Below are positions 3,462 to 52,328 of a stretch of 64,000 nt of DNA, in pieces. The stretch's first letter is position 1. Every line of letters begins with the position of its first letter. Position numbers and translations under genes: made by a program. Source of the stretch: Candidatus Rhodoluna planktonica (GTDB taxonomy: Bacteria > Actinomycetota > Actinomycetes > Actinomycetales > Microbacteriaceae); assembly GCF_001854225.1 (NCBI RefSeq), contig NZ_CP015208.1, positions 62,001-126,000 on the forward strand. The letters are read 5' to 3'. The notes beneath the pieces were generated by a model. It searched no databases. It was given only the letters and a program-made list of their open reading frames with translations, and was not told the origin of the DNA.

Positions 3462-3600
3462 ATCGTAGTGACTTAAACAACCGAAAAAATCTAAATTTCG
3501 CAATACGTCGGTAACAAATTGGAGAAAATTCGACCGGGGTCTAGTGCCAGGCGGAATGAGTGCTAAGGTTTGTCTTAACAAAGTCGGCAAAGGAGCCACA

Positions 3601-4563
3601 ATGTCAGCAAGCCCAGATCGCAACCTCGGAATGGAACTCGTTCGCGCTACCGAAGCTGCAGCGATTCAGGCAAGCAAATACATTGGTCGTGGCGACAAGA
3701 ATGCCGCTGACAAAGCAGCTGTAGACGCCATGCGCGCTTATTTATCCACCGTTGACTTTGAAGGCACCGTAGTGATTGGCGAGGGCGAAAAAGATGAAGC
3801 GCCGATGCTTTACAACGGTGAAGTGGTGGGTAATGGCAACGGCCCGGCGTGCGATATTGCAGTTGATCCGGTAGACGGAACAAGCCTCACCGCTGCGGGC
3901 CGAGGCCATGCAATTTCTGTAATCGCGGTTTCTGATCGCGGCTCAATGTATAACCCCAAAGATGTCTTTTACATGGACAAACTGATTACCACTGCCGCAG
4001 GTCGAGGAGTGGTTAGCCTTGATCAGTCAGCCGGAGATAACGTTCGAGAGTTGGCCAAGGCGCTAAAAAAAGATGTGCGCGACATCACCGTGGCACTAAT
4101 CGACCGTCCGCGACACCAGCAAACCATGGATGAAATTCGTGCGGCCGGTGCCAGAACCAGATTGTTCCTTGACGGCGACGTGGCTGCTGGCATCCACGCA
4201 GTAACCGGAGAAGGTGGCATCGACATGCTGCTCGGCGTCGGTGGCGCACCAGAAGGCACCATCTCTGCCTGTGCCACCAAAGCGTTGGGCGGTTTCATGC
4301 AGGGCCGAATCAAACCTCAGTCGCCAGAAGAAATGCGTCGAGCACTAGAGGCGGGCCACGACCTAAATCGCATCTTCGAACAGGATGACCTGGTCACCAG
4401 TGACAACACCTATTTTGTGGCCACCGGAGTAACCGATGGAATGTTGGCAGCTGGCGTGACTAGGGTTGGTAATTACATTCGAACAGAGAGCGTGATTCTT
4501 AGATCGAAGTCGGGAACAATTCGCAAGGTGACCGCTGACTATCTTGCAGAACGGTGGGACTAA
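3601..4563 (+). CDS. glpX: Class II fructose-1,6-bisphosphatase
   Basis: A 320-residue metal-dependent phosphatase that converts fructose-1,6-bisphosphate to fructose-6-phosphate in gluconeogenesis. GEGEKDEAPML (60-70) and DPVDGT (89-94) carry the metal ligands of the GlpX/inositol-phosphatase fold, and LLGVGGAPEGTISA is typical of class II. The ATG at 3601 follows AAAGGAG; an upstream ATG at 3544 lacks such a site. GlpX is the usual FBPase of actinobacteria. It overlaps the next gene in a TAATG junction, so it is translationally coupled with gluconokinase. Confidence 0.93.
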   Translation: MSASPDRNLGMELVRATEAAAIQASKYIGRGDKNAADKAAVDAMRAYLSTVDFEGTVVIGEGEKDEAPMLYNGEVVGNGNGPACDIAVDPVDGTSLTAAGRGHAISVIAVSDRGSMYNPKDVFYMDKLITTAAGRGVVSLDQSAGDNVRELAKALKKDVRDITVALIDRPRHQQTMDEIRAAGARTRLFLDGDVAAGIHAVTGEGGIDMLLGVGGAPEGTISACATKALGGFMQGRIKPQSPEEMRRALEAGHDLNRIFEQDDLVTSDNTYFVATGVTDGMLAAGVTRVGNYIRTESVILRSKSGTIRKVTADYLAERWD

Positions 4564-10360: not shown

Positions 10361-11354
10361 TACAAACACCACCGGCGCCAGTATTGAACTCATCAATGTC
10401 ACCAAGACCTACCCAAATCAGCCGGTAGCAGCCGTTGAAAACTTCTCGATGAGCATCAACCCGGGTGAGTTAATTATGTTGGTTGGCCCTTCAGGCTGCG
10501 GTAAGACCACCACCATGAAGATGATCAACCGCATCATCGAACCAACCTCGGGTTCAATTTTGATTGATGGCGAAGATGTTTTGTCGCTCAACCAAAACAC
10601 GTTGCGTCGCCGCATCGGTTACGTAATTCAGCAAATTGGTTTGTTTCCCCACATGACTATTGAAGAAAACGTTGCGGTTGTGCCAAACCTGCTGGGCTGG
10701 GACAAGACAAAAATCAAGTCTCGAGTAGAAGAGCTGCTTGCTCTGGTTGAACTGGACCCGGCAAAATTTGCTAAACGCTACCCAAAGCAACTTTCGGGCG
10801 GACAACAGCAGCGTGTCGGGGTAGCTCGTGCGTTGGCCGCCGACCCTCCGGTAATGCTCATGGATGAGCCATTCGGTGCTACCGACCCAATCACCCGTGA
10901 AAAACTGCAAGACGAATTCTTAAAGCTGCAGGCAACAATCGGCAAAACTATCGTCTTCGTTACTCACGACTTTGATGAAGCAATAAAACTAGGCGATCGA
11001 ATTGCGGTTCTTAGCGAGCGTTCGCAAATTGCTCAATTCGACACCCCAGCTAACATTTTGGCCAGCCCCGCAAACGACTATGTCAGCTCATTTATCGGTG
11101 AAGCGGCAGCAATTAAGCGACTTGCACTGCTGCCGGTAAACCAGGCCAAGTTGGGTGCTGCAGTTTCAAATTCTCACCTCAGCGTAGGCATTGATGAAAA
11201 CTTGCGCGAGGCACTAGACCACATCGTGCTAAATGGTGGCTCGCCAGTTGCAGTTACCGATGCAAACGGCAAAACCGTGGGTTCGATTTCGGTTGCCGAA
11301 ATCGCCAACGCATTGGGTGCAGAGGTGCCAAACCTAAAGGCAGCTGGGAAGTAA
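10353..11354 (+). CDS. Quaternary-amine-type ABC importer ATPase (OpuCA/ProV-like)
   Basis: A 333-residue ABC ATPase that powers the importer. It shows Walker A GPSGCGKTT, the signature LSGGQQQR, Walker B VMLMDEPFGATDP and the switch His in VFVTHDFDEA. The C-terminal 90 residues form a CBS-like regulatory segment (VGIDENLREALDHIVLNGGSPVAVTDANG), as in OpuCA, where CBS modules respond to ionic strength. Only one such segment is apparent. Its GTG start lies inside the permease gene. Confidence 0.9.
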   Translation: MPNTNTTGASIELINVTKTYPNQPVAAVENFSMSINPGELIMLVGPSGCGKTTTMKMINRIIEPTSGSILIDGEDVLSLNQNTLRRRIGYVIQQIGLFPHMTIEENVAVVPNLLGWDKTKIKSRVEELLALVELDPAKFAKRYPKQLSGGQQQRVGVARALAADPPVMLMDEPFGATDPITREKLQDEFLKLQATIGKTIVFVTHDFDEAIKLGDRIAVLSERSQIAQFDTPANILASPANDYVSSFIGEAAAIKRLALLPVNQAKLGAAVSNSHLSVGIDENLREALDHIVLNGGSPVAVTDANGKTVGSISVAEIANALGAEVPNLKAAGK

Positions 11355-19947: not shown

Positions 19948-20769
19948 ATGGCTGTTGCCGCCGATATTTCTAGGTCCTGGTTGCTGGTCAACGGCATGCA
20001 CGAAGAGCGCTTCGATGTTGCAAAACGTTCGCGAGCCGACCAAATAATTCTCGACATTGAAGATGCCGTTGACCCAAGTTTGAAGTCGACCGCTCGCGAA
20101 AAAGTCATCAACTGGCTGAACGACGGCGGCGAAGGTTGGGTGCGAATCAACGACTACACCACTGATTTTTGGCGCGATGATGTTGATGGCTTGCGCGGAG
20201 TGAAAGGTCTGCGCGGCGTGATGCTGGCTAAGACCGAGGCCGGCAATCAAGTTACCGAAACATTTGACATGCTGGGTCGCGAGGTGCCGGTAATTGCCTT
20301 GGTCGAATCGGCGCTCGGCATCGAAGATGCTCGCGAAATTGCAACGGCCCGCGGCGCATTCAGGCTTGCTTTTGGCAGCGGCGACTATCGTCGTGACACT
20401 GGCACCGCAGCCGATATTTACGCTATGAGTTATCCGCGTTCGCGCCTGGTTACCGCCAGCCGTATTGGCAATTTGCCCGGCCCAATCGATGGACCAACAG
20501 TTGGCTCATCACACGCCATTTTGCGTGAGCAAAGCGAGCACGTCGTTGCATTAGGCATGACCGGAAAACTTTGCCTTGATGTCGATCAGCTACCAGTTAT
20601 TAATGAAGCGATTTGCCCAACCACTGCAGACGTAACCTGGGCATACGACTTTTTACAAGATTTCGAAGCGCGCGGTCGCGTGGTTCGAGACGGCAGCGAC
20701 TTGCCCCGCTTGGGTCGCGCTGAAAAAATCATGAAGTTGGCAAACGCATTTGGAATCACTCCACGCTAG
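19948..20769 (+). CDS. CitE/HpcH-family lyase (malyl-CoA lyase-like)
   Basis: A 273-residue TIM-barrel protein of the HpcH/HpaI aldolase and citrate-lyase beta family. SRSWLLVNGMHEERFDVAK, the metal-site ILDIEDAVDP, VALVESALGIEDAREIA and FGSGDYRRDTG are recognisable. Homologues cleave or hydrolyse beta-hydroxyacyl-CoA compounds. The ATG at 19948 follows GGAG. No CoA transferase or ligase gene lies in the run, so how a CoA ester would form is unclear. It ends the probable operon and is followed by a hairpin. Confidence 0.8.
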   Translation: MAVAADISRSWLLVNGMHEERFDVAKRSRADQIILDIEDAVDPSLKSTAREKVINWLNDGGEGWVRINDYTTDFWRDDVDGLRGVKGLRGVMLAKTEAGNQVTETFDMLGREVPVIALVESALGIEDAREIATARGAFRLAFGSGDYRRDTGTAADIYAMSYPRSRLVTASRIGNLPGPIDGPTVGSSHAILREQSEHVVALGMTGKLCLDVDQLPVINEAICPTTADVTWAYDFLQDFEARGRVVRDGSDLPRLGRAEKIMKLANAFGITPR

Positions 20770-20770
20770 A

Positions 20771-20791
20771 CGTTTAGCCACCAGCTAAACG
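20771..20791 (+). terminator. Hairpin at the end of the Fae-containing operon
   Basis: A perfect 8-bp stem CGTTTAGC/GCTAAACG around a CACCA loop, two bases after the stop of the CitE-like gene. There is no following T-run, so it may be a weak or Rho-assisted terminator or a 3' processing barrier. Confidence 0.5.
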
Positions 20792-20881
20792 GTTAGTGTG
20801 ACGACGCAACGGGTCAAAGATGACCTGGCTCGCTGTCGATGTGCCTCCAGATTTGCCAATCTACATAACGATTTTGAGTCA

Positions 20882-20899
20882 GTTCGTATGGATACGAAC
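20882..20899. promoter_or_regulatory. 18-bp palindrome upstream of the PEPCK-GAPDH gene
   Basis: GTTCGTAT-GG-ATACGAAC, a near-perfect palindrome with 8-bp arms, 78 bases upstream of the fusion gene. It has the size and symmetry of a dimeric-repressor operator, and no second copy was noticed. A regulator cannot be named. Confidence 0.55.
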
Positions 20900-20900
20900 G

Positions 20901-20941
20901 ATTTTCAGGAAACAAGCCACCAGGTTTGTTAGCCTGAAAAT
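20901..20941 (+). promoter_or_regulatory. Extended leader hairpin of the PEPCK-GAPDH gene
   Basis: An outer 9-bp stem ATTTTCAGG/CCTGAAAAT (20901-20909, 20933-20941) encloses an inner 8-bp stem AACAAGCC/GGTTTGTT with one wobble pair and an ACCA loop (20911-20930). It is separated by a small A/AG internal loop. It ends 35 bases before the start codon, suggesting RNA-level control or message stabilisation. No known riboswitch class was recognised. Confidence 0.6.
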
Positions 20942-20976
20942 GTAAAGCGAATTCTTTCAATGACGAAAGGCCGGTA

Positions 20977-23900
20977 ATGAGCGCACACCCGCTCCAGCAA
21001 AATGTCCCGCAGCAATTAGGGCTGGATAAGTGGGTGATGCAGGTTGCCGAACTTACCAAGCCAGACCAAATTGTCTGGTGCGATGGTTCAACCGCTGAAT
21101 ATCAAGAGCTCACCAAAAAATTGGTTGAGCGCGGAACCTTCATTCCACTAAACCCAGAAAAGCGCCCCAATTCTTACCTGGCTCGCACCGACCCAGCAGA
21201 CGTAGCCCGCGTTGAAGAGCGAACCTTCATTTGCGCCAGCAAGCAAATAGATGCCGGCCCAACCAATAACTGGATGGCGCCAGACGATATGAAAGATCGC
21301 CTGATCCCACTCTTCGATGGATCGATGCGCGGTCGCACGATGTACGTCATCCCGTTTTCGATGGGTCCACTAGATTCACCGCTTGCCCGATACGGTGTGC
21401 AACTAACCGATAGCGAGTACGTCGTGGTGAACATGCACCTTATGACTCGGGTCGACCCCGCGCTATTCGACCGCATTCGCTCGGGCGCAAACTGGGTTGC
21501 CACCATGCACTCGGTTGGGGCACCAAACGATGACAGTGTTTGGCCAAGCAATAAAGAAAAATACATCTCCCACTTTCCAGAGACCCTCGAAGTTTGGTCA
21601 TTCGGTTCTGGTTACGGCGGCAATGCGTTGCTAGGCAAAAAATGTATGTCTCTGCGCATCGGTTCGGTGCTAGCCCGCAACGAGGGTTGGCTTGCCGAGC
21701 ACATGCTCATCATGCGCTTGATCAGCCCCGAGGGTAAAAAGTTTCACCTCAGTGCAGCCTTCCCCTCGGCCTGTGGCAAAACCAACTTGGCCATGTTGCA
21801 GCCGGGCATCAAAGACTGGAAAGTCGAAACCCTTGGTGACGACATCGCCTGGATTGCACCGGCACCGAATGGGCGTTTGCGCGCAATCAACCCAGAAAAC
21901 GGATTCTTCGGAGTTGCGCCCGGTACCAGCTTTAAGACCAATCCGGTTGCCATGGAGTTGGTCGCTAAAGAAACTATTTTCACCAACGTTGCTCTAACTG
22001 AAGACGGCGACGTTTGGTGGGAGGGTATGACCAAAGAGGTGCCAGACAACCTAATCAACTGGCGTGGTGAAAAGCACGACAAAAACTCGGGGCTACCTGC
22101 CGCACATCCAAACGGTCGCTTCACCTCGCCGGCGCGCAACTGCCCAACAATTGCCGCTGACTGGGATGACCCTGCGGGTGTCGAGCTTGACGCGATCATT
22201 TTTGGTGGTCGTCGTGCCAAAGATATTCCGTTGGTAACCGAGGCAAACAACTGGCAGCACGGTGTTTTCATGGGCGCCACCATGGCAAGCGAGCAAACCG
22301 CAGCTGCCGAAGGCCCGGTTGGTGAAGTTAGACGTGACCCATTTGCCATGCTTCCTTTCGCCGGATACAACATGGCCGACTACTGGAACCACTGGCTAAG
22401 TTTTGGTGACAACCCAGAGCTCAAGCTTCCCAAAATCTTCAGGGTCAACTGGTTCTTGAAGAACGATGAAGGCAAATTTGTTTGGCCAGGTTTCGGTGAA
22501 AATGCAAGAGTTTTGCGTTGGATGGCGCAGCGCATCGAAGGCAAAGTTTCGGCCAACGAGACAGCAATCGGTAACCTGCCCAACTTGGCCGACCTTGGTG
22601 TTTCAGAGCTAGACCTGCCTGAAGCAGACCAGCAGCAGTTGCTTGACTGGAACCACGATGCTGTGGTGAAAGACCTCGAGTCGATTCAGCGATTCTTGGA
22701 TGCCTTCGGCGATCGTGCCCCAAAGCGGCTCATTGAAGAAGCAGAAACTAGATTGGCTTCGCTAAGCCAAGTTTGGGAACAGTCGCTAAGCACCGCTGAA
22801 TCGCTGGTGCCACTGATTGGTCGCCTCTACCGCAGTAACGGAGTTTTGCTTTCGGTGCACGGTCGTTCGCTAATCAACCGCACTCCGGTGCAGCTATTGA
22901 AAGCGATGAAGTATGCCCGACACATCGACGGTGTACCGCTAGACATCTCTCGTGCAGCATCGCTGATTCGCCTACTTGATCGCCTCGGTTTGGGTCCAGC
23001 ATCAATCGATATAGCCCGCATGCTTTCAAAGCAGAAAGAATCAGGCAAGCAGCTGGATGAGTTCGTTCGCGAAGAATTGCGCGAAATATCTCAGATGGTT
23101 TCGGTGATCACCGAATCAGAACGCGATGTTGTGCTTTACGGCTTTGGTCGAATCGGTCGCTTGGTAGCACGCATCCTCGTAGCACACGATGGTGATCGCC
23201 GCGGACTCAAGCTGCGAGCAATCGTGGTTCGCCGCGGCAGCACCGCCGACTTGGTGAAGCGCGCTAGCTTGCTGCGCCGCGACTCGGTGCACGGCATGTT
23301 TGAGGGAACTATTTCGGTTGACGAAGAACGCAGCATGATCATCGTCAACGGCATCGAAATTAAGGTCATCTACTCAACTGATCCGGCCAGTGTCGATTAC
23401 GAGCAGTATGGAATCAAGAACGCTTTGGTGATTGATAACACCGGAAAGTGGCGCGACCAAGAAGGTCTCGAACAGCACCTAAAGGCTAAAGGTGTTGAGC
23501 GAGTGTTGCTAACTGCGCCGGGCAAAGGCAATTTGCCTAACGTGGTTTACGGCATCAACCACCAAAACTTGGCCGACCAGAAAATTGTTACCGCCGCGTC
23601 GTGCACCACAAACGCGATTGTTCCAGTGCTGAAAGTGCTTGAAGATAACTTTGGTGTTGTGCACGGTCACGTTGAAACAGTGCACTCGTTCACCAACGAT
23701 CAGAACCTCACCGACAACTTCCACAAGGGTGATCGACGCGGACGCTCTGCGGTGCTGAACATGGTGATCACCGAGACCGGTGCTGCCTCTGCGGTTGCAA
23801 AAGCATTGCCAAGTTTTGAAGGCAAGCTAACCGGAAATGCGATTCGCGTTCCGACCCCTGATGTTTCAATGGCGATTTTGAATCTGACATTCGAAAAGGA

Positions 23901-24174
23901 TGTCACCCGAGCTGAATTGAACTCGGTGTTGCGTGCCGCCTCGCAGAACCCAGCGACCCGAAATCAGATCGATTACATCGAGTCACCCGAGGTGGTTTCA
24001 ACTGACTTCATCGGTTCAAACCGTGCCGGTATTGTCGATGGTCTAGCAACCATAGCAAGCGGCCGTCACGGTGTGGTTTACATCTGGTACGACAACGAAA
24101 ACGGATACTCGCATCAGGTGGTGCGCGTCGCTGAAGACATGATGTTGCAGTCTCGCCCGGTTTTTCCAAGATAG
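20977..24174 (+). CDS. PEP carboxykinase (GTP) - GapB-type GAPDH fusion protein
   Basis: One 1065-residue reading frame with two complete enzymes. Residues 1 to about 592 are GTP-dependent PEPCK: SFGSGYGGNALLGKK (208-222), P-loop PSACGKTN (263-270), LGDDIAW (286-292) and guanine-site FAGYNMADYWNHW (461-473). Residues about 605-1065 are the long actinobacterial GapB-type GAPDH. It has helical extension PLIGRLYR and GRSLINR (629-635), Rossmann GFGRIGR (722-728), catalytic C876 in AASCTTN, H903 in VHSFTNDQN, and WYDNENGYSHQ near the end. Both work in gluconeogenesis, from oxaloacetate to PEP and from 1,3-bisphosphoglycerate to glyceraldehyde-3-phosphate. A linker of only about 10-20 residues joins them. 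A sequencing error removing a stop is possible but not suggested by the clean frame. Confidence 0.88.
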   Translation: MSAHPLQQNVPQQLGLDKWVMQVAELTKPDQIVWCDGSTAEYQELTKKLVERGTFIPLNPEKRPNSYLARTDPADVARVEERTFICASKQIDAGPTNNWMAPDDMKDRLIPLFDGSMRGRTMYVIPFSMGPLDSPLARYGVQLTDSEYVVVNMHLMTRVDPALFDRIRSGANWVATMHSVGAPNDDSVWPSNKEKYISHFPETLEVWSFGSGYGGNALLGKKCMSLRIGSVLARNEGWLAEHMLIMRLISPEGKKFHLSAAFPSACGKTNLAMLQPGIKDWKVETLGDDIAWIAPAPNGRLRAINPENGFFGVAPGTSFKTNPVAMELVAKETIFTNVALTEDGDVWWEGMTKEVPDNLINWRGEKHDKNSGLPAAHPNGRFTSPARNCPTIAADWDDPAGVELDAIIFGGRRAKDIPLVTEANNWQHGVFMGATMASEQTAAAEGPVGEVRRDPFAMLPFAGYNMADYWNHWLSFGDNPELKLPKIFRVNWFLKNDEGKFVWPGFGENARVLRWMAQRIEGKVSANETAIGNLPNLADLGVSELDLPEADQQQLLDWNHDAVVKDLESIQRFLDAFGDRAPKRLIEEAETRLASLSQVWEQSLSTAESLVPLIGRLYRSNGVLLSVHGRSLINRTPVQLLKAMKYARHIDGVPLDISRAASLIRLLDRLGLGPASIDIARMLSKQKESGKQLDEFVREELREISQMVSVITESERDVVLYGFGRIGRLVARILVAHDGDRRGLKLRAIVVRRGSTADLVKRASLLRRDSVHGMFEGTISVDEERSMIIVNGIEIKVIYSTDPASVDYEQYGIKNALVIDNTGKWRDQEGLEQHLKAKGVERVLLTAPGKGNLPNVVYGINHQNLADQKIVTAASCTTNAIVPVLKVLEDNFGVVHGHVETVHSFTNDQNLTDNFHKGDRRGRSAVLNMVITETGAASAVAKALPSFEGKLTGNAIRVPTPDVSMAILNLTFEKDVTRAELNSVLRAASQNPATRNQIDYIESPEVVSTDFIGSNRAGIVDGLATIASGRHGVVYIWYDNENGYSHQVVRVAEDMMLQSRPVFPR

Positions 24175-24183
24175 GTAATCGAA

Positions 24184-25593
24184 ATGAGTAGCCAAAAGCT
24201 AGAAACTCGCAGCGAACACGATTTACTGGGCAACTTGGATGTGCCAGTCAACGCCTACTGGGGTGTGCACACCGCTCGGGCGCTAGAGAACTTCGAAATC
24301 TCTGGTGTTCCGATCGGGCACTATCGTTCCCTGGTGCGCGCACTGGCTTTCATCAAAGAAGCCTCGGCGCTGGCCAACCACGAACTGGGTGAACTGGCGA
24401 CCGAACAATTTTTGCCGATTCAAAAGGCTTGCCAAGAAGTGCGCGATGGCAAATTTGATAGCGAGTTTGTGGTCGATGCAATTCAGGGTGGTGCCGGCAC
24501 CAGTACCAACATGAATGCCAACGAGGTGATCGCAAACCGCGCGCTCGAAATCGCCGGGTTCAAAAAAGGTGAGTACGAGCACATCCATCCGTTGAATCAC
24601 GTGAACATGTCGCAGTCGACCAACGATGTCTACCCGACCGCGGTTAAGGTCGCGTTGATCATCGAAATTATGGCGCTGCTAGATGAGTTGAAGCTGCTAC
24701 GTGAATCATTTGCCGCCAAGGGTGCCGAGTTCGCTTCGGTTATCAAGATGGGCCGAACTCAGTTGCAAGATGCGGTGCCAATGACACTTGGGCAAGAGTT
24801 TGTTGCCTATGGTGTGACCATTGCCGAGGATGAGTCGCGGTTGCGCGAAGCGATTCGCTTGCTCAGTGAAATCAACCTAGGCGGTACCGCAATTGGTACG
24901 CAGTTGAACACCCCCGAAGGTTATGCCGAGGCGGTTTGCCGCCACCTAAGCGTGATCACAGAGCACAATTTTGTGGTTGCCGACAACCTAATCGAGGCAA
25001 CCCAAGACACCGGTGTTTTTGTCACATCTTCGAGTGTGCTGAAGCGTGTGGCGATCAAGCTTTCAAAAATTGCTAACGATTTGCGCCTGCTCTCCAGCGG
25101 CCCTCGCGCCGGTTTTGGTGAAATCAATTTGCCACCTCGACAGGCCGGCTCGTCGATTATGCCGGGCAAGGTGAATCCGGTTATTCCAGAGGTTGTCAAC
25201 CAGATTGCCTTCACCGTAATCGGCAACGACACCACGGTTTCGATGGCCTCTGAGGCCGGGCAGTTGCAGCTGAACGCATTCGAGCCAATCATTGCTCGTT
25301 CGCTGATGATGAGCATCGTGTATCTGCGCCGAGGATGTAAAACACTACGCGAATTTTGCGTTAACGGAATAACCGCCAACGAGGAATTCTTACGTCGCAC
25401 TGTAGAAAACTCGATCGGTTTGGTAACCGCACTGTCACCGCGCATCGGTTACGAAAGTGCAACCGCGGTGGCCAAACGAGCGCAAGAAACCGGGCAGTCG
25501 GTGCGCGCTGTTGTGCTTGAGTTGGGCCTGCTAACTGAGGCTGAATTTGATGAGATTCTCGGTGATGTTGATCGGCTAACCGGAAGGGGTTAG
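24184..25593 (+). CDS. aspA: Aspartate ammonia-lyase
   Basis: A 469-residue lyase that converts aspartate to fumarate and ammonia. The superfamily signature SSIMPGKVNPVIPEVVNQ, the GGAGTSTNMNANEVIANRA loop and NMSQSTNDVYPTA are in place. The aspartase form of these motifs and the N-terminal RSEHDLLGNLDVP separate it from fumarase. It starts 9 bases after the PEPCK-GAPDH gene and probably shares its transcript. Together they route aspartate through fumarate and oxaloacetate to sugar phosphates. A terminator follows. Confidence 0.9.
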   Translation: MSSQKLETRSEHDLLGNLDVPVNAYWGVHTARALENFEISGVPIGHYRSLVRALAFIKEASALANHELGELATEQFLPIQKACQEVRDGKFDSEFVVDAIQGGAGTSTNMNANEVIANRALEIAGFKKGEYEHIHPLNHVNMSQSTNDVYPTAVKVALIIEIMALLDELKLLRESFAAKGAEFASVIKMGRTQLQDAVPMTLGQEFVAYGVTIAEDESRLREAIRLLSEINLGGTAIGTQLNTPEGYAEAVCRHLSVITEHNFVVADNLIEATQDTGVFVTSSSVLKRVAIKLSKIANDLRLLSSGPRAGFGEINLPPRQAGSSIMPGKVNPVIPEVVNQIAFTVIGNDTTVSMASEAGQLQLNAFEPIIARSLMMSIVYLRRGCKTLREFCVNGITANEEFLRRTVENSIGLVTALSPRIGYESATAVAKRAQETGQSVRAVVLELGLLTEAEFDEILGDVDRLTGRG

Positions 25594-25657: not shown

Positions 25658-25726
25658 TTCAACCTAGGCCAGTATTGCGGCGCGCTCTTGACTTTTCAAC
25701 CTAGGCCAATATTGCGGCGCGCTCTT
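25658..25726. repeat. 32-bp direct repeat duplicating the end of a gene
   Basis: Two copies (25658-25689 and 25695-25726) with one mismatch, separated by 5 bases. The right copy holds the final codons and stop of the minus-strand repeat-protein gene. The left copy is a non-coding duplicate between that stop and the terminator. Confidence 0.9.
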
Positions 25727-26954
25727 CAACACTCAAGGTAGCTATGACCGGTTCTGGAATAGCAGCTACCTGATCGGTTGTAAGTGCGGTGAGTTCTTCG
25801 AGTGTCAAGGTGTTCAATTGCGGCCCATCAATTTTGGCCAAAGTGGTTGGAGTGATTGCAGCAAGTTGAATGGCATCTAATGCAGCAAACTGCTTGATGT
25901 TTAGCAAATCGAGTTGCTTGGGCGTGATGCCATCCATAGCCTCAGGCGCTAGGGCACCAAGTTGCACCGGGGTGAAAGCTTTGAAGGTGTTCACCGGAAT
26001 GGTCGCTAGTTGGGCATCTTGAAGTCCAGGCAAATTGGTTGGGGTTAGGCCCTTTAATTGCGCTGGCGTTAGTGACGCCATCACATTTGGCTTCATGGCG
26101 GCCAATTGCTGGTCGGTGAGAACCTTCAACTCGTTGGCAATCAAAGTTTTGAACTGTGCCGGAATCAAGCCCTCAAGTGCATCTGGGGTGAGCGCCTTCA
26201 ACTGGGTAACGCTTAGAGCGTTGAAGGTCGACGCAGGCAATGCGGCCAACTGAGTGTCGATAAGACCCTCGATGCTCGCTGGCAAAAGTGCTTTCACCTG
26301 TGCTGGAATCAAACTCTTGATTGTTGCCGGGGTGATGTTGGCCAACTGTTCAGCATCAAGCGCCTTCAGCTGAGTCACTGCCATTTGCTTCAGCTGAGTT
26401 GGGTTTAGGCCGGCAAAAGCTTCAGGCAACATGCCATCGATGAAACTTGGGGTTAGCCCCTTCAACGCGGTTGGCGAAAATGCAGCCAGTGCTGCTGGGT
26501 CAACGCCGGCAGCAGCTGATGGTGGCAGGGCAGCCAACTGCTTGAGGTCGAACGACTTAATTGCACTTGGGTCTAGTGCGGCAAACTGTTCGGGGGTAAA
26601 ACCTTTGATGGTGTTAGTTGAAAGCTTGTCGATATCTTTCACATCAAAGTTTGCAAAAGACTCGGGGTTTAGTTTGGCAAAGTCACCCGAACCTAGCGAG
26701 CCAAGGTTTGGTATCTGGCTTGGGTCAAAAGGTGTGGTGCCATTCAGCAGCGAACTAATGTCGGGGATGCCACCAGGCAGTGTTGGCAGCGGCCCAGTTG
26801 GTAGTGGTCCGGTCGGCAATGGCAAGTTTGGAAAAACTGGGTCGGTTGGGATGTTCGGCACTGGCGCAGGAAATGGCAAGTCAATTGCCTGTGCGGGAGA
26901 AGCACCAAAAGTTAGCAGGGCAGCTGCAGCGGCAGCGGCTAGATATTTTTTCAT
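25701..26954 (-). CDS. Secreted octapeptide-repeat protein
   Basis: A 417-residue exported protein with no family I recognise. Residues 1-23 are a signal peptide ending in ASPAQA, followed by a Pro/Gly-rich stretch to about residue 90 with LPTGP repeats. From residue 95 to 414 it is an unbroken series of 40 eight-residue units of the type L-T-P-x-Q-L-x-A. The last three residues ILA begin another unit. No LPXTG anchor or C-terminal membrane helix is seen. The ATG at 26954 begins MKKYLAAAA; an upstream in-frame start would only add residues before the signal peptide. A structural or adhesive surface role is a guess. Confidence 0.85.
   Translation of the reverse strand: MKKYLAAAAAAALLTFGASPAQAIDLPFPAPVPNIPTDPVFPNLPLPTGPLPTGPLPTLPGGIPDISSLLNGTTPFDPSQIPNLGSLGSGDFAKLNPESFANFDVKDIDKLSTNTIKGFTPEQFAALDPSAIKSFDLKQLAALPPSAAAGVDPAALAAFSPTALKGLTPSFIDGMLPEAFAGLNPTQLKQMAVTQLKALDAEQLANITPATIKSLIPAQVKALLPASIEGLIDTQLAALPASTFNALSVTQLKALTPDALEGLIPAQFKTLIANELKVLTDQQLAAMKPNVMASLTPAQLKGLTPTNLPGLQDAQLATIPVNTFKAFTPVQLGALAPEAMDGITPKQLDLLNIKQFAALDAIQLAAITPTTLAKIDGPQLNTLTLEELTALTTDQVAAIPEPVIATLSVEERAAILA
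25713..26672 (-). repeat. 40 tandem octapeptide-encoding units
   Basis: The coding DNA for residues 95-414 breaks into 40 gapless 24-base units. Odd-numbered units in the second half tend to carry Q-L/F at positions 5-6 and even ones P at position 3. This points to a 16-residue super-repeat. The units are diverged at DNA level, so the array is old or under selection rather than recently expanded. Confidence 0.8.
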
Positions 26955-27026
26955 TTCAACACCGTTCGTTGTTGGATAATCCAAATGTTAGTGCCAGCGA
27001 ACCAGGTGTCAATACTGAATTAGTGG

Positions 27027-28298: not shown

Positions 28299-29129
28299 TC
28301 AATAACCAAAAATGTGCAGATAGTTTGAAACAGCAGATTTCACCGCAGTACGAGCTGCTCCCAAATATTTGCGTGGATCATGCGAATTTGGATTTGCCGA
28401 AAGGTACTCGAAGATTGCCTGAGTCATTTTCTGGTTCAGATCCGTCGAGACATTAATCTTGCGAATACCCGCTCTAATTGCCGCAGCAATATTCTCATCG
28501 CTGACGCCTGAAGAACCATGAAGCACCAGTGGAACATCGACCACCTTATGAATAGTTGAGATTAGATCGACGTCAAGTGCGGCCTCTTTTGTTGTCATGG
28601 CATGTGATGAACCGACAGCAACAGCCAAACCATCAACGGAGGTTTCGCTCACAAATGCCGCAGCCTCGCCTGGTTTGGTTCGCACGGTGGGCGAATGGAC
28701 GCCGTCCTTGCCACCAATTTCGCCAAGTTCGGCTTCTAACCAAATGCCAGCGTCACGACATTTTGAAGAAAGTGACTTCGTAGTTGAAACGTTGTCGGCA
28801 AAGGTTAGGTGAGAACCATCAAACATTATGGAATTGAAACCTAGGCTTATTGCCTCACTGATGAGAGTCAAATCATCGGCATGATCTAGATGCACTGCAA
28901 CCTGGGCACTACTGGCTTGGGCGATTGAAAGCATGGCCAACCCAATTGGTGCAAGCGCACCGTGGTACTTAATTGCATTCTGCGAAAGCTGCAGAAATAC
29001 CGGGGCATTCATTTCTTCGGCGGCTGAGACAATTGCCTGGGCATGTTCAATTTGAATCACGTTGAAGGCGCCAATGGCTTTTCCGGCAGATAACTGCGAA
29101 AACATTTCAAAAGGCGATACAAGACTCAT
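28299..29129 (-). CDS. Class II tagatose/fructose-bisphosphate aldolase
   Basis: A 276-residue zinc aldolase of the GatY/KbaY/Fba family. Metal and catalytic motifs are VHLDHADDL, the acidic EAELGEIGGKDG, VGSSHAM and LHGSSGVSD. NVSTDLN is the phosphate-binding segment. It would cleave tagatose-1,6-bisphosphate to dihydroxyacetone phosphate and glyceraldehyde-3-phosphate. Its place as the last catabolic gene after a PfkB kinase supports the tagatose route rather than glycolysis. It lies 6 bases after that kinase gene. Confidence 0.88.
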   Translation of the reverse strand: MSLVSPFEMFSQLSAGKAIGAFNVIQIEHAQAIVSAAEEMNAPVFLQLSQNAIKYHGALAPIGLAMLSIAQASSAQVAVHLDHADDLTLISEAISLGFNSIMFDGSHLTFADNVSTTKSLSSKCRDAGIWLEAELGEIGGKDGVHSPTVRTKPGEAAAFVSETSVDGLAVAVGSSHAMTTKEAALDVDLISTIHKVVDVPLVLHGSSGVSDENIAAAIRAGIRKINVSTDLNQKMTQAIFEYLSANPNSHDPRKYLGAARTAVKSAVSNYLHIFGY

Positions 29130-29135
29130 AATTTC

Positions 29136-30029
29136 CTAATTGGGTTTAATCAAATTTTTAAACATAGACAAATCAATCTCGCCGGCACTCACAGCTAACA
29201 CAGCAGCTGACCCAGCGGCAACTGAATGTCGAAGAGCAATTTCATCGCTTAGCCCGTCAAGTTTTGCACCAATGAATCCGGCGAGCGAGGCATCACCGGC
29301 ACCAGTTGGGTTTCCATTCAATCTTTCGATTTGCCTAAACTCTAAAGTTTCAAGCCCGTGACGGTACAGCGAAATCCCTTTTTCGCCTCGTGAGAGCAAG
29401 ACATTTAGGGCACCCAGTGATAACAGGTGCTTTGCCGCCTCATCCGCAGTTTTCGTGCCAGCGGCATCCATCGCTTCAATCTCGTTCGGCTTTAGCAACC
29501 ACGCATGAGCCTCGGCAGCGGCTAACAGATGATCTCCTGTGGTGTCTATGCAGACCCTAATCCGCGTTTGGTTAGCTAACGAAATCAACGAGGCGAGTTC
29601 GTTTGGGCCCACTCCGGCAGGCATTCTCCCAGAAATAACTAGGTAATCCTCACCGATTAGTCTTTGGCTTAGAGCCCGCTTAATTTCTTCGAGTTCAGCT
29701 GCCGATATTGCCGCTGGAGGTTCGTTCAGTACGGTCGCATCGCCATCAAAGACAGTGACACTAGTGCGGGTTTCAGTCGCAATTGGTATCACAGTCGAGT
29801 TGTGAAACGTTGAGCTTAGAGTAGTTGTGAACCAGTCGGTTACCGACCCACCCAAGGCGGTTAGAATTGCCGGTTCATGTCCCAGTTGTTTTAAAACGGA
29901 AGCAACATTGGTTGCCTTGCCGCCAATTTTCTTTGTTACGCGTTCAACGCGATTGCTCTCGCCAACCTTAAGGTCTTGCAATTCGTAGGTGACGTCAACC
30001 GCTGGGCTAAGACTCAGAACTAGTGTCAT
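29136..30029 (-). CDS. PfkB-family sugar-phosphate kinase (tagatose-6-P / fructose-1-P kinase type)
   Basis: A 297-residue kinase of the 1-phosphofructokinase/LacC type. The N-terminal SLSPAVDVTYEL, the GGKATNVASVLKQLG substrate site and the C-terminal catalytic GNPTGAGDASLAGFIG are canonical. The expected reaction is tagatose-6-phosphate to tagatose-1,6-bisphosphate, given the aldolase next to it. Fructose-1-phosphate cannot be excluded by sequence. ATGA overlap with the ROK kinase gene upstream shows coupled translation. Confidence 0.87.
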   Translation of the reverse strand: MTLVLSLSPAVDVTYELQDLKVGESNRVERVTKKIGGKATNVASVLKQLGHEPAILTALGGSVTDWFTTTLSSTFHNSTVIPIATETRTSVTVFDGDATVLNEPPAAISAAELEEIKRALSQRLIGEDYLVISGRMPAGVGPNELASLISLANQTRIRVCIDTTGDHLLAAAEAHAWLLKPNEIEAMDAAGTKTADEAAKHLLSLGALNVLLSRGEKGISLYRHGLETLEFRQIERLNGNPTGAGDASLAGFIGAKLDGLSDEIALRHSVAAGSAAVLAVSAGEIDLSMFKNLIKPN

Positions 30030-51389: not shown

Positions 51390-52328
51390 TTAAGCGATTT
51401 CCTGGGTTAAACGTTCCGCAAGTTCGGCATATTTATCGGCCGTTTGAGCAACAATCTCCGCTGGCAAAACCGGTGGTTCGCCAACCTGGTTCCAGTTGTC
51501 GGCCAACCAGTTGCGCACAATTTGCTTGTCAAAACTTTCTTTGCGCTCGCCGCGATCCCAGGCGGCCTTCGACCAGTAGCGCGAAGAGTCGGGGGTGAGC
51601 ACCTCATCTCCCAGGATGATGGTGCCGGTTTCATCAACACCAAATTCAAACTTGGTGTCAGCCAAAATCAGCCCAGCTTTTTCGGCCAGGGCGCTTGCTG
51701 CTTTGAAAACTTGCAAGCTCAAATCGCGAAGTGCGGCTGCATTTTCGGCACCGATAATTTGAACCACCTGATTGAAGCTGATGTTTTCATCGTGCTCACC
51801 CATCGGCGCTTTATAGGCCGGGGTAAAAATTGGCTCAGGCAATTTGCCGCCGAAGGTCAAACCTTCAGGTAACTTCACGCCGCAAATCTCACCGGTGGCT
51901 TGATACTCTTTCCAGCCCGACCCTGAGATGTAGCCGCGCACCACACACTCAATTGGAAACATCTCAAGTTTTTTGGCGATGGTTGCGCGATTGCGAACTT
52001 CTGCCGGAATTTCAACTTCGTGGCTTAGGTGATTTGGAACCGCTAATCGCTCAAACCACCAATTGGTTAAGCGAGTTAGGTTGGCGCCCTTACCTGGAAT
52101 GGTTGGCTTCAGCACGTGGTCGAAAGCACTCACCCGATCTGAAGCAACCACCAAAATCAGGTGGTTCAGTGCCGGGTCTTCACTTTCGTAAAGGTCGCGC
52201 ACCTTTCCGCTGTAAACGTGCTTCCAGCCGGCAATTGCAACCGCGCCCGAGTCGGCAGTTGAAACTGCGCCCGAGTCGGCAGACTCGCCATTCAGACCCA
52301 AGTTGTTTTGCTCGCCCTGCGCGCTCAC
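51390..52328 (-). CDS. purC: SAICAR synthase
   Basis: A 312-residue enzyme that ligates aspartate to CAIR in purine biosynthesis. The core begins GWKHVYSGKVRDLYE (about residue 34) and continues with VVASDRVSAFDHVLKPTIP and DTKFEFGVDE. The 30 or so residues before it are an unusual low-complexity extension with a duplicated ADSGAV. The GTG start overlaps the purD stop in a TAGTG junction, supporting coupled translation. An in-frame TTG ten codons in is a possible alternative start. Confidence 0.94.
   Translation of the reverse strand: MSAQGEQNNLGLNGESADSGAVSTADSGAVAIAGWKHVYSGKVRDLYESEDPALNHLILVVASDRVSAFDHVLKPTIPGKGANLTRLTNWWFERLAVPNHLSHEVEIPAEVRNRATIAKKLEMFPIECVVRGYISGSGWKEYQATGEICGVKLPEGLTFGGKLPEPIFTPAYKAPMGEHDENISFNQVVQIIGAENAAALRDLSLQVFKAASALAEKAGLILADTKFEFGVDETGTIILGDEVLTPDSSRYWSKAAWDRGERKESFDKQIVRNWLADNWNQVGEPPVLPAEIVAQTADKYAELAERLTQEIA
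52243..52282. repeat. 24-bp period duplication in the 5' end of purC
   Basis: The 16-mer GCGCCCGAGTCGGCAG occurs at 52243-52258 and again at 52267-52282, a spacing of 24 bases or 8 codons. It encodes the repeated ADSGAV in the N-terminal extension of PurC. Confidence 0.85.

Follow-up and report, generated by a model that had tools for sequence, protein, structure and literature searches.

The window analysed here, a 64,000-nucleotide stretch of the genome of Candidatus Rhodoluna planktonica, a small freshwater bacterium (contig NZ_CP015208.1, positions 62,001 to 126,000), carries a gene in which a GTP-dependent phosphoenolpyruvate (PEP) carboxykinase (PEPCK, encoded by pckG) runs in frame into a long-form glyceraldehyde-3-phosphate dehydrogenase (GAPDH, encoded by gapB). 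Two enzymes that are separate in most relatives are one natural protein in this genome, and the benefit of joining them is something that we infer. Both halves are complete: NCBIfam profile NF003253 covers residues 12-598 with 907.5 bits against a curated cut-off of 504, and NF006139 covers residues 595-1064 with 719.1 against 431 bits, matching profile positions 8-478 of 480. An original prediction, made from the DNA letters, had described one open 1065-codon frame holding two whole enzymes, the second of GapB type, with a P-loop at residues 263-270 and catalytic residues Cys876 and His903. All of this was borne out. Among solved structures, the nearest to the GAPDH half is Corynebacterium glutamicum GAPDH 8jb1, which holds NADP.

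The fusion protein and its joint

An alignment of 27 rows (A2) served for motif comparison and for AlphaFold2. The PEPCK motifs RT, AEHM, PSACGKTN and GDD match the free PEPCK rows shown letter for letter; GDD and AEHM are the metal-ligand motifs of these enzymes, and RT belongs to the substrate site. The GAPDH motifs ASCTTN, TVHS(F/Y)TND and IRVP likewise agree with the free relatives shown. In the coenzyme region the fused GAPDH reads AIVVRR and lacks the NAD-selecting Asp; VVR is found in 14/14 long-form rows shown, while at the place of VVRR the free GAPDH of the source genome carries an NAD-type NDL. By its residues, the coenzyme region of the fused enzyme is NADP-compatible. A protein of the TPI-GAPDH type (TPI, triosephosphate isomerase) was considered and rejected, as Pfam gives only PEPCK domains ahead of GAPDH and no TPI domain at the N-terminus.

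The short linker that had been proposed between the domains did not hold up: PEPCK joins the N-terminal extension of the long GAPDH, of about 120 residues, directly. The free PEPCK of a related genome (G070) ends ...KRLAFFDKN, the fusion reads ...TRLASLS-QVWEQSLSTAESLVP, and the free GapB of another (G067) starts MQNFALNGPEWAASLNTAESLVP. Set against these termini, the fused PEPCK extends to roughly its natural C-terminus, and GapB lacks only about its first eight residues. In the AlphaFold2 models helices 583-596 and 598-621 meet at the joint; the best of five models reached a predicted local distance difference test score (pLDDT) of 78.8 and a predicted TM-score (pTM) of 0.57 (pLDDT of the others 77.9, 77.4, 64.1 and 59.8), with an unreliable mutual placement of the halves. 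Each half taken alone resembles solved enzymes closely. VIA-align matched model residues 596-1064 to 8jb1 with Z 46.0 and a root-mean-square deviation of 2.2 (455 aligned, 56% identity), fusion residues 599-1058 aligning to 8jb1 7-466, N-terminal extension included. The C. glutamicum protein of 8jb1 goes by the name GapB or GapX, and GapB of that species is the long form. The PEPCK half matches many solved PEPCKs at Z of about 42-43 over about 570-580 residues, among them Mycobacterium tuberculosis 4wie and C. glutamicum 2zci.

The source genome (G000) is a single contig of 1,424,506 bp, in which the whole-fusion query matched the fusion and one ordinary GAPDH (a 336-aa frame). Of the free counterparts that the original prediction had raised, the GAPDH is there, and no second PEPCK or free pckG was found in this search.

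Features of the fusion locus and related loci (positions in the window unless an L record is named; G, genome; L, sequence record)
Feature	Position	Strand	Remarks
GlpX-type fructose-1,6-bisphosphatase frame	3472-4560	+	recognised by motif DPVDGT only
-10-like hexamer TAGCCT	20930..20935	+	also in leaders of G006, G070, G071; TAACCT in G067; putative promoter element
16-bp inverted repeat CTTTCAATGACGAAAG	20954..20969	+	ends 7 nt ahead of start codon; overlaps Shine-Dalgarno-like GAAAGG
PEPCK-GAPDH fusion gene	20977..24174	+	ATG start, 1065 aa, internal stops absent; conserved in G006 (L138) and G010 (L139)
PEPCK N-terminal domain PEPCK_N, PF17297	21028..21678	+	residues 18-234, Pfam
PEPCK GTP P-loop domain PEPCK_GTP, PF00821	21688..22749	+	residues 238-591, Pfam
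P-loop PSACGKTN with cysteine C266	21763..21786	+	residues 263-270; invariant across PEPCK rows shown (A2)
Joint, PEPCK C-terminus into GapB N-terminal helix, no separate linker	22750..22776	+	residues 592-600; alignments and predicted helices
N-terminal extension of long GAPDH	22768..23124	+	residues 598-716; aligned to start of 8jb1
GAPDH NAD(P)-binding domain Gp_dh_N, PF00044	23125..23457	+	residues 717-827, Pfam
Catalytic Cys876 codon	23602..23604	+	in ASCTTN
GAPDH catalytic domain Gp_dh_C, PF02800	23617..24087	+	residues 881-1037, Pfam
Catalytic His903 codon	23683..23685	+	in TVHSFTND
Aspartate ammonia-lyase gene aspA	24184..25593	+	NF008909, 714.1 against 510 bits; 9 nt past fusion stop codon
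Free gapB of G067	L142:9882-11303		at fusion site, with pckG-type leader

Distribution and origin of the fusion

In a genus set of 67 genomes, many of them incomplete, 17 match the fusion at E<=1e-80. Three carry the fusion itself: G000, G006 (82% identity, whole, in one contig of 1,430,433 bp) and G010 (83%, its contig beginning at residue 224). The architecture looked for in relatives is therefore present in two further genomes, and the stop codon with a new start between the domains, which would have spoken for two genes, is absent: the frame is uninterrupted throughout in G006 and from residue 224 on in G010. Free PEPCK, whole or nearly so, occurs in eleven genomes (G005, G007, G023, G028, G029, G062, G065, G070, G076, G081 and G082), in none of which a long GapB matched at the same threshold. 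Both genes are present but apart in G031, and G067 has GapB only. In G071 PEPCK is truncated by a contig end within pckG and may be fused or free. G018 has a short piece of PEPCK, likewise at the end of a contig, that lies below the threshold.

Wider searches yielded no further fusion. In a drawn sample of 398 family genomes E = 0 was reached only by G000 and G006 (G010 is unlisted there), and in drawn, overlapping samples of order and phylum genomes (396 each) nothing but the source genome passed 1e-270. In a named genome collection, from which records of or near the source genome may be left out, none of the best 80 of at least 589 relatives matched past residue 656. The PEPCK-GAPDH fusion is rare, and we found no published account of one in the open-access literature.

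An artefact of sequencing or assembly, such as an overlooked stop codon or an indel where the domains meet, has practically no chance of being the explanation: judged from the assembled sequence, three genomes share the joint at the same length, and two of the three are single-contig. Over 1066 aligned codons G000 and G006 differ by one gap. For PEPCK, the GapB extension, the GAPDH core and the 28-codon joint, in this order, the ratio of nonsynonymous to synonymous differences per site (pN/pS) was 0.148, 0.158, 0.209 and 0.303 between G000 and G006, 0.052, 0.183, 0.106 and 0.142 between G006 and G010, and 0.137, 0.196, 0.201 and 0.197 between G000 and G010. Uncorrected pS is about 0.7 between G000 and G006, a corrected dS being unreliable because synonymous sites are near saturation. 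These ratios indicate purifying selection on both halves, and since the fusion is also conserved in G006 and G010, we take it to be real and not an assembly error.

Trees and gene order suggest that the fusion arose when a pckG of the type found in G070 and G071 became linked in frame with gapB at a site beside purC. The fused PEPCK halves form one clade (support 100/99), sister to the PEPCK of G070 and G071 (joint clade 100/100), whose free pckG sits in a common six-gene block including a topA-like gene. The fusion site of G006 has the same order as the free gapB site of G067, namely a flavoprotein gene (CoA-disulfide-reductase-like), a small open reading frame (ORF), the gene in question, purC and purD, the last recognised from its conserved neighbour. 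In G010 a CoA-disulfide-reductase-like gene lies directly downstream of the fusion instead. In the window the fusion is flanked by aspA and by an HpcH/CitE-type lyase gene, which scores below cut-off as NCBIfam RipC, and a purC homologue lies at 51390-52328. By this synteny, the trees and the leaders, pckG would have come with its own leader in frame before gapB at the purC site, and the fusion gene would later have moved beside aspA in the source genome. Alternatively, the fusion may have passed horizontally between G000 and G006; its 82% identity, however, falls in the range spanned by eight nearby ORF pairs, 72-92%, a set that excludes antisense ORFs and a 102-aa ORF at 57%.

A chromosomal ancestor with pckG and gapB as neighbours was sought and rejected. 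In a tblastn of the GapB half against 149 pckG-flank records (1.5-8 kb, many only 1.5 kb or ended by a contig end), long GapB was found at the fusion loci (window/L001, L003/L138 and L004/L139), in G067 (L039/L142) and in G031 (L040/L144, apart from pckG); five other matches at 37-39% are ordinary GAPDH.

The leader adds to this history. An inverted repeat, CTTTCAAYGRYGAAAG, precedes the fusion start in G000 and G006 (the start is missing in G010), free pckG in G070 and G071 and free gapB in G067, with sites at 20954-20969 of the window, L138:9077, L141:7527, L142:9860 and L140 (minus strand, 11095-11110). These five are the exact copies in the 67 genomes, all directly before fusion, pckG or gapB; as the search pattern was derived from them, what counts is that the search turned up no further exact copy. 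Allowing one mismatch gave 34 rows (29 of them one-mismatch) against 13 for a reversed control. At up to two mismatches the repeat occurs in 12 of 145 pckG leader rows, the 12 being duplicate rows from four genomes (G000, G006, G070 and G071), and the exact repeat in 3 of 41 GapB rows, all of them the single G067 gene (the 41 include duplicates and in-gene fusion positions).

Given this distribution, the simplest reading is that the repeat is the leader of this pckG type, inherited by the fusion, and that the free gapB of G067 may be a reversed fusion that lost its PEPCK half. Otherwise the repeat would reflect common regulation of two separate genes before they were fused, and G067 may preserve the pre-fusion state. 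In a GapB tree G067 falls outside the fused rows, though the support (84/64) is weak, which speaks for the pre-fusion state and against the loss; a second quick tree does not resolve its placement. Grouping G067 with G006 and G010 was not rejected by an approximately unbiased (AU) test (p 0.28), and a topA tree (quick method, 24/26 genomes, no match in G062 and G007) nests G067 among the fused lineages.

As for the role of the repeat, Rfam found no known RNA element at gathering threshold over 20600-24400. RNA folding of the five leaders gave a local CUUUC/GAAAG hairpin with total-energy z of 0.31, 0.78, -0.64, -1.72 and -1.21; because these total energies are not exceptional, the repeat may equally be a DNA site. 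It is possible that it acts as an operator, or as a hairpin hiding the Shine-Dalgarno sequence, of a gluconeogenic leader. Farther 5' of the fusion in G006 and of gapB in G067 lie TGGAAACGCTTACA (L138:9018-9031) and TGTCAGCGCTTACA (L142:9796-9809), which are putative LacI-type operator-like sites; a sequence of this kind is not evident in the window copy.

A possible role in setting pathway direction

The surroundings of the gene fit a gluconeogenic setting. No genome of the 67 in the genus set has a PF00365 phosphofructokinase over cut-off (8/14 controls pass; PfkB-type kinases were not searched), and this, together with the conservation in relatives, supports the natural fusion in a gluconeogenic setting that had been predicted. 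For the related Rhodoluna lacicola a complete set of gluconeogenesis genes is reported, with phosphofructokinase-1 not annotated (PMC4156110). Gluconeogenesis-related genes, not named individually, belong there to expression groups that rise in light (PMC8591293). GapB of C. glutamicum is described, with reference to Omumasaba 2004, as inactive in the glycolytic direction (PMC3536970). Among the 14 control genomes, one passes the cut-off of the long-GAPDH profile NF006139. The original prediction had also placed GlpX and aspartase directly downstream. This is right for aspartase, which is probably co-transcribed with the fusion in the source genome and is not adjacent to it in G006 or G010; the GlpX frame lies 16 kb upstream. 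On the minus strand, a class II ketose-bisphosphate aldolase gene stands beside a PfkB-looking ORF (28299-30029, the ORF at 29136-30029), and the pair might provide a route through tagatose phosphate or fructose phosphate in this genome, which lacks a PF00365 phosphofructokinase. The minus strand also encodes, at 25701-26984, a 427-aa protein with repeated LTPAQLKGL-like units and a signal-peptide-like start.

The PEPCK and GAPDH steps set the direction of the lower trunk, and enolase, phosphoglycerate mutase and phosphoglycerate kinase, which act between them, are reversible. The explanation that we favour, and hold to be somewhat likely from the sequence evidence, is a bifunctional gluconeogenic enzyme in which these two direction-setting steps are joined, so that they would be made in a fixed ratio and controlled together. 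To judge from their sequences, the two halves are most likely both active. The N-terminal half would convert oxaloacetate and GTP to PEP, and the C-terminal half, an NADP-type long GAPDH, would reduce 1,3-bisphosphoglycerate to glyceraldehyde-3-phosphate; in the source genome aspartase would feed fumarate toward oxaloacetate. The gain would be equal amounts of the gluconeogenic pair under one control region; joining might in this way, as the original prediction had it, fix the enzyme ratio and commit the cell to sugar synthesis. Channelling is unlikely to be the benefit, because the two steps are not consecutive and three separate enzymes lie between them.

Outside the genus, both enzymes are found together on plasmids. 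Of 311 matching plasmid records, 6 span 80% or more of the query; these six, from Curtobacterium, hold pckG and gapB as unfused neighbours in the same order. In one of the six, plasmid NZ_CP080396.1 of C. flaccumfaciens DSM 20129 (L269:4511-9401), a dicarboxylate symporter gene, pckG and gapB lie in series, pckG and gapB overlapping by TGATG; the three probably form one operon, and neighbours of the pair are annotated as response regulator and ATP-binding protein. The plasmid pairing seems to have arisen separately, because its PEPCK and GapB fall outside the clades of the fused halves. This recurring pair is the best outside sign that both enzymes work together, and along with the leader common to pckG, the fusion and the G067 gapB it fits the idea of fixed ratio and commitment.

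Several observations weigh against a functional link. The kinetic benefit of linking non-consecutive reactions is not obvious. On the topA tree the fused genomes are not one clade, at least two changes are needed, and G067, G029 and G031 are nearer to G006 than G000 is; with near relatives that have free PEPCK, free GapB or neither, the link is dispensable. In the 149 pckG-flank records GapB adjoins PEPCK nowhere but in the fusions, and another Curtobacterium plasmid (L270) has pckG without an adjoining gapB. A neutral accident, in which pckG landed in frame before gapB and the enzymes work independently, is a serious rival, although we give it a minority chance. It suits a fusion found in only 3/67 genomes, and G067, which keeps GapB alone at the same site with a pckG-type leader, could have shed the PEPCK half without harm. 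A link without function is harder to square with retention of the fusion until synonymous sites were near-saturated, also through relocation of the gene, and with the recurrence of the unfused pair on plasmids.

In the favoured explanation the protein would assemble as a GAPDH tetramer bearing four PEPCK arms. That the activities on such a tetramer are coupled, through dosage, assembly or cross-regulation by GTP and NADPH, and drive the reversible trunk sugarward where a PF00365-type phosphofructokinase is lacking, is a bolder and rather unlikely extension of the favoured explanation. One may further speculate that the arms act as a metabolon scaffold, gathering enolase, mutase and phosphoglycerate kinase so that PEP is handed on. 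GAPDHs are usually tetramers and a near-continuous helix is predicted across the joint, yet three unfused steps separate the reactions of the halves and their placement is uncertain (pTM 0.57; mean pLDDT from 78.8 down to 59.8), and we think a scaffold quite improbable. The chance is just as slim that two separate products are made, by cutting of the chain or by an internal start of GapB near the joint. Long GAPDHs elsewhere stand alone, and an ATG codon lies in the joint of G006 and G010 (SPMW); in the window, however, residues 571-640 contain no in-frame ATG, only GTG and TTG codons, none with a clear ribosome-binding site by eye. That one half is an inactive passenger or merely regulatory is very improbable, with the active-site motifs of both retained and pN/pS low in both.

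Comparison with known systems

The lineage offers natural comparisons, with free pckG in G070, the fusion in G006, G010 and G000, and a possibly de-fused gapB in G067. The fusion could be tested in R. lacicola, which grows in culture and is naturally transformable, and in which genes have been replaced (PMC11577799).

Each half has well-described counterparts. The fusion shares with the GTP-PEPCKs of NF003253 (4wie, 2zci) a whole PEPCK with P-loop and metal and substrate motifs, but the solved members end at the PEPCK terminus where the fusion runs on into a second enzyme. It shares with the long GAPDHs of NF006139/PRK08289 (8jb1) the N-terminal extension, the VVR coenzyme region and the catalytic Cys and His, while the native start of its GapB, about eight residues, is replaced by PEPCK. 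The Curtobacterium flaccumfaciens plasmid pair has the same enzymes in the same order and adjacency, as two overlapping genes that are unfused and outside the clades of the fused halves.

The closest known fusion of trunk enzymes is the eukaryotic TPI-GAPDH of stramenopiles and other protists, which bears mitochondrial targeting signals (PMC3527533). Both it and the protein described here unite two trunk-pathway enzymes naturally and carry GAPDH as the C-terminal partner; the protist fusion, however, contains no PEPCK and joins consecutive steps, for which channelling is the obvious idea. In the PEPCK-GAPDH fusion the two activities are the first and the last of the lower gluconeogenic trunk, an arrangement not readily accounted for by channelling. 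If our explanation is true, joining non-consecutive steps would be a way to set the direction of a pathway rather than to channel its substrate.

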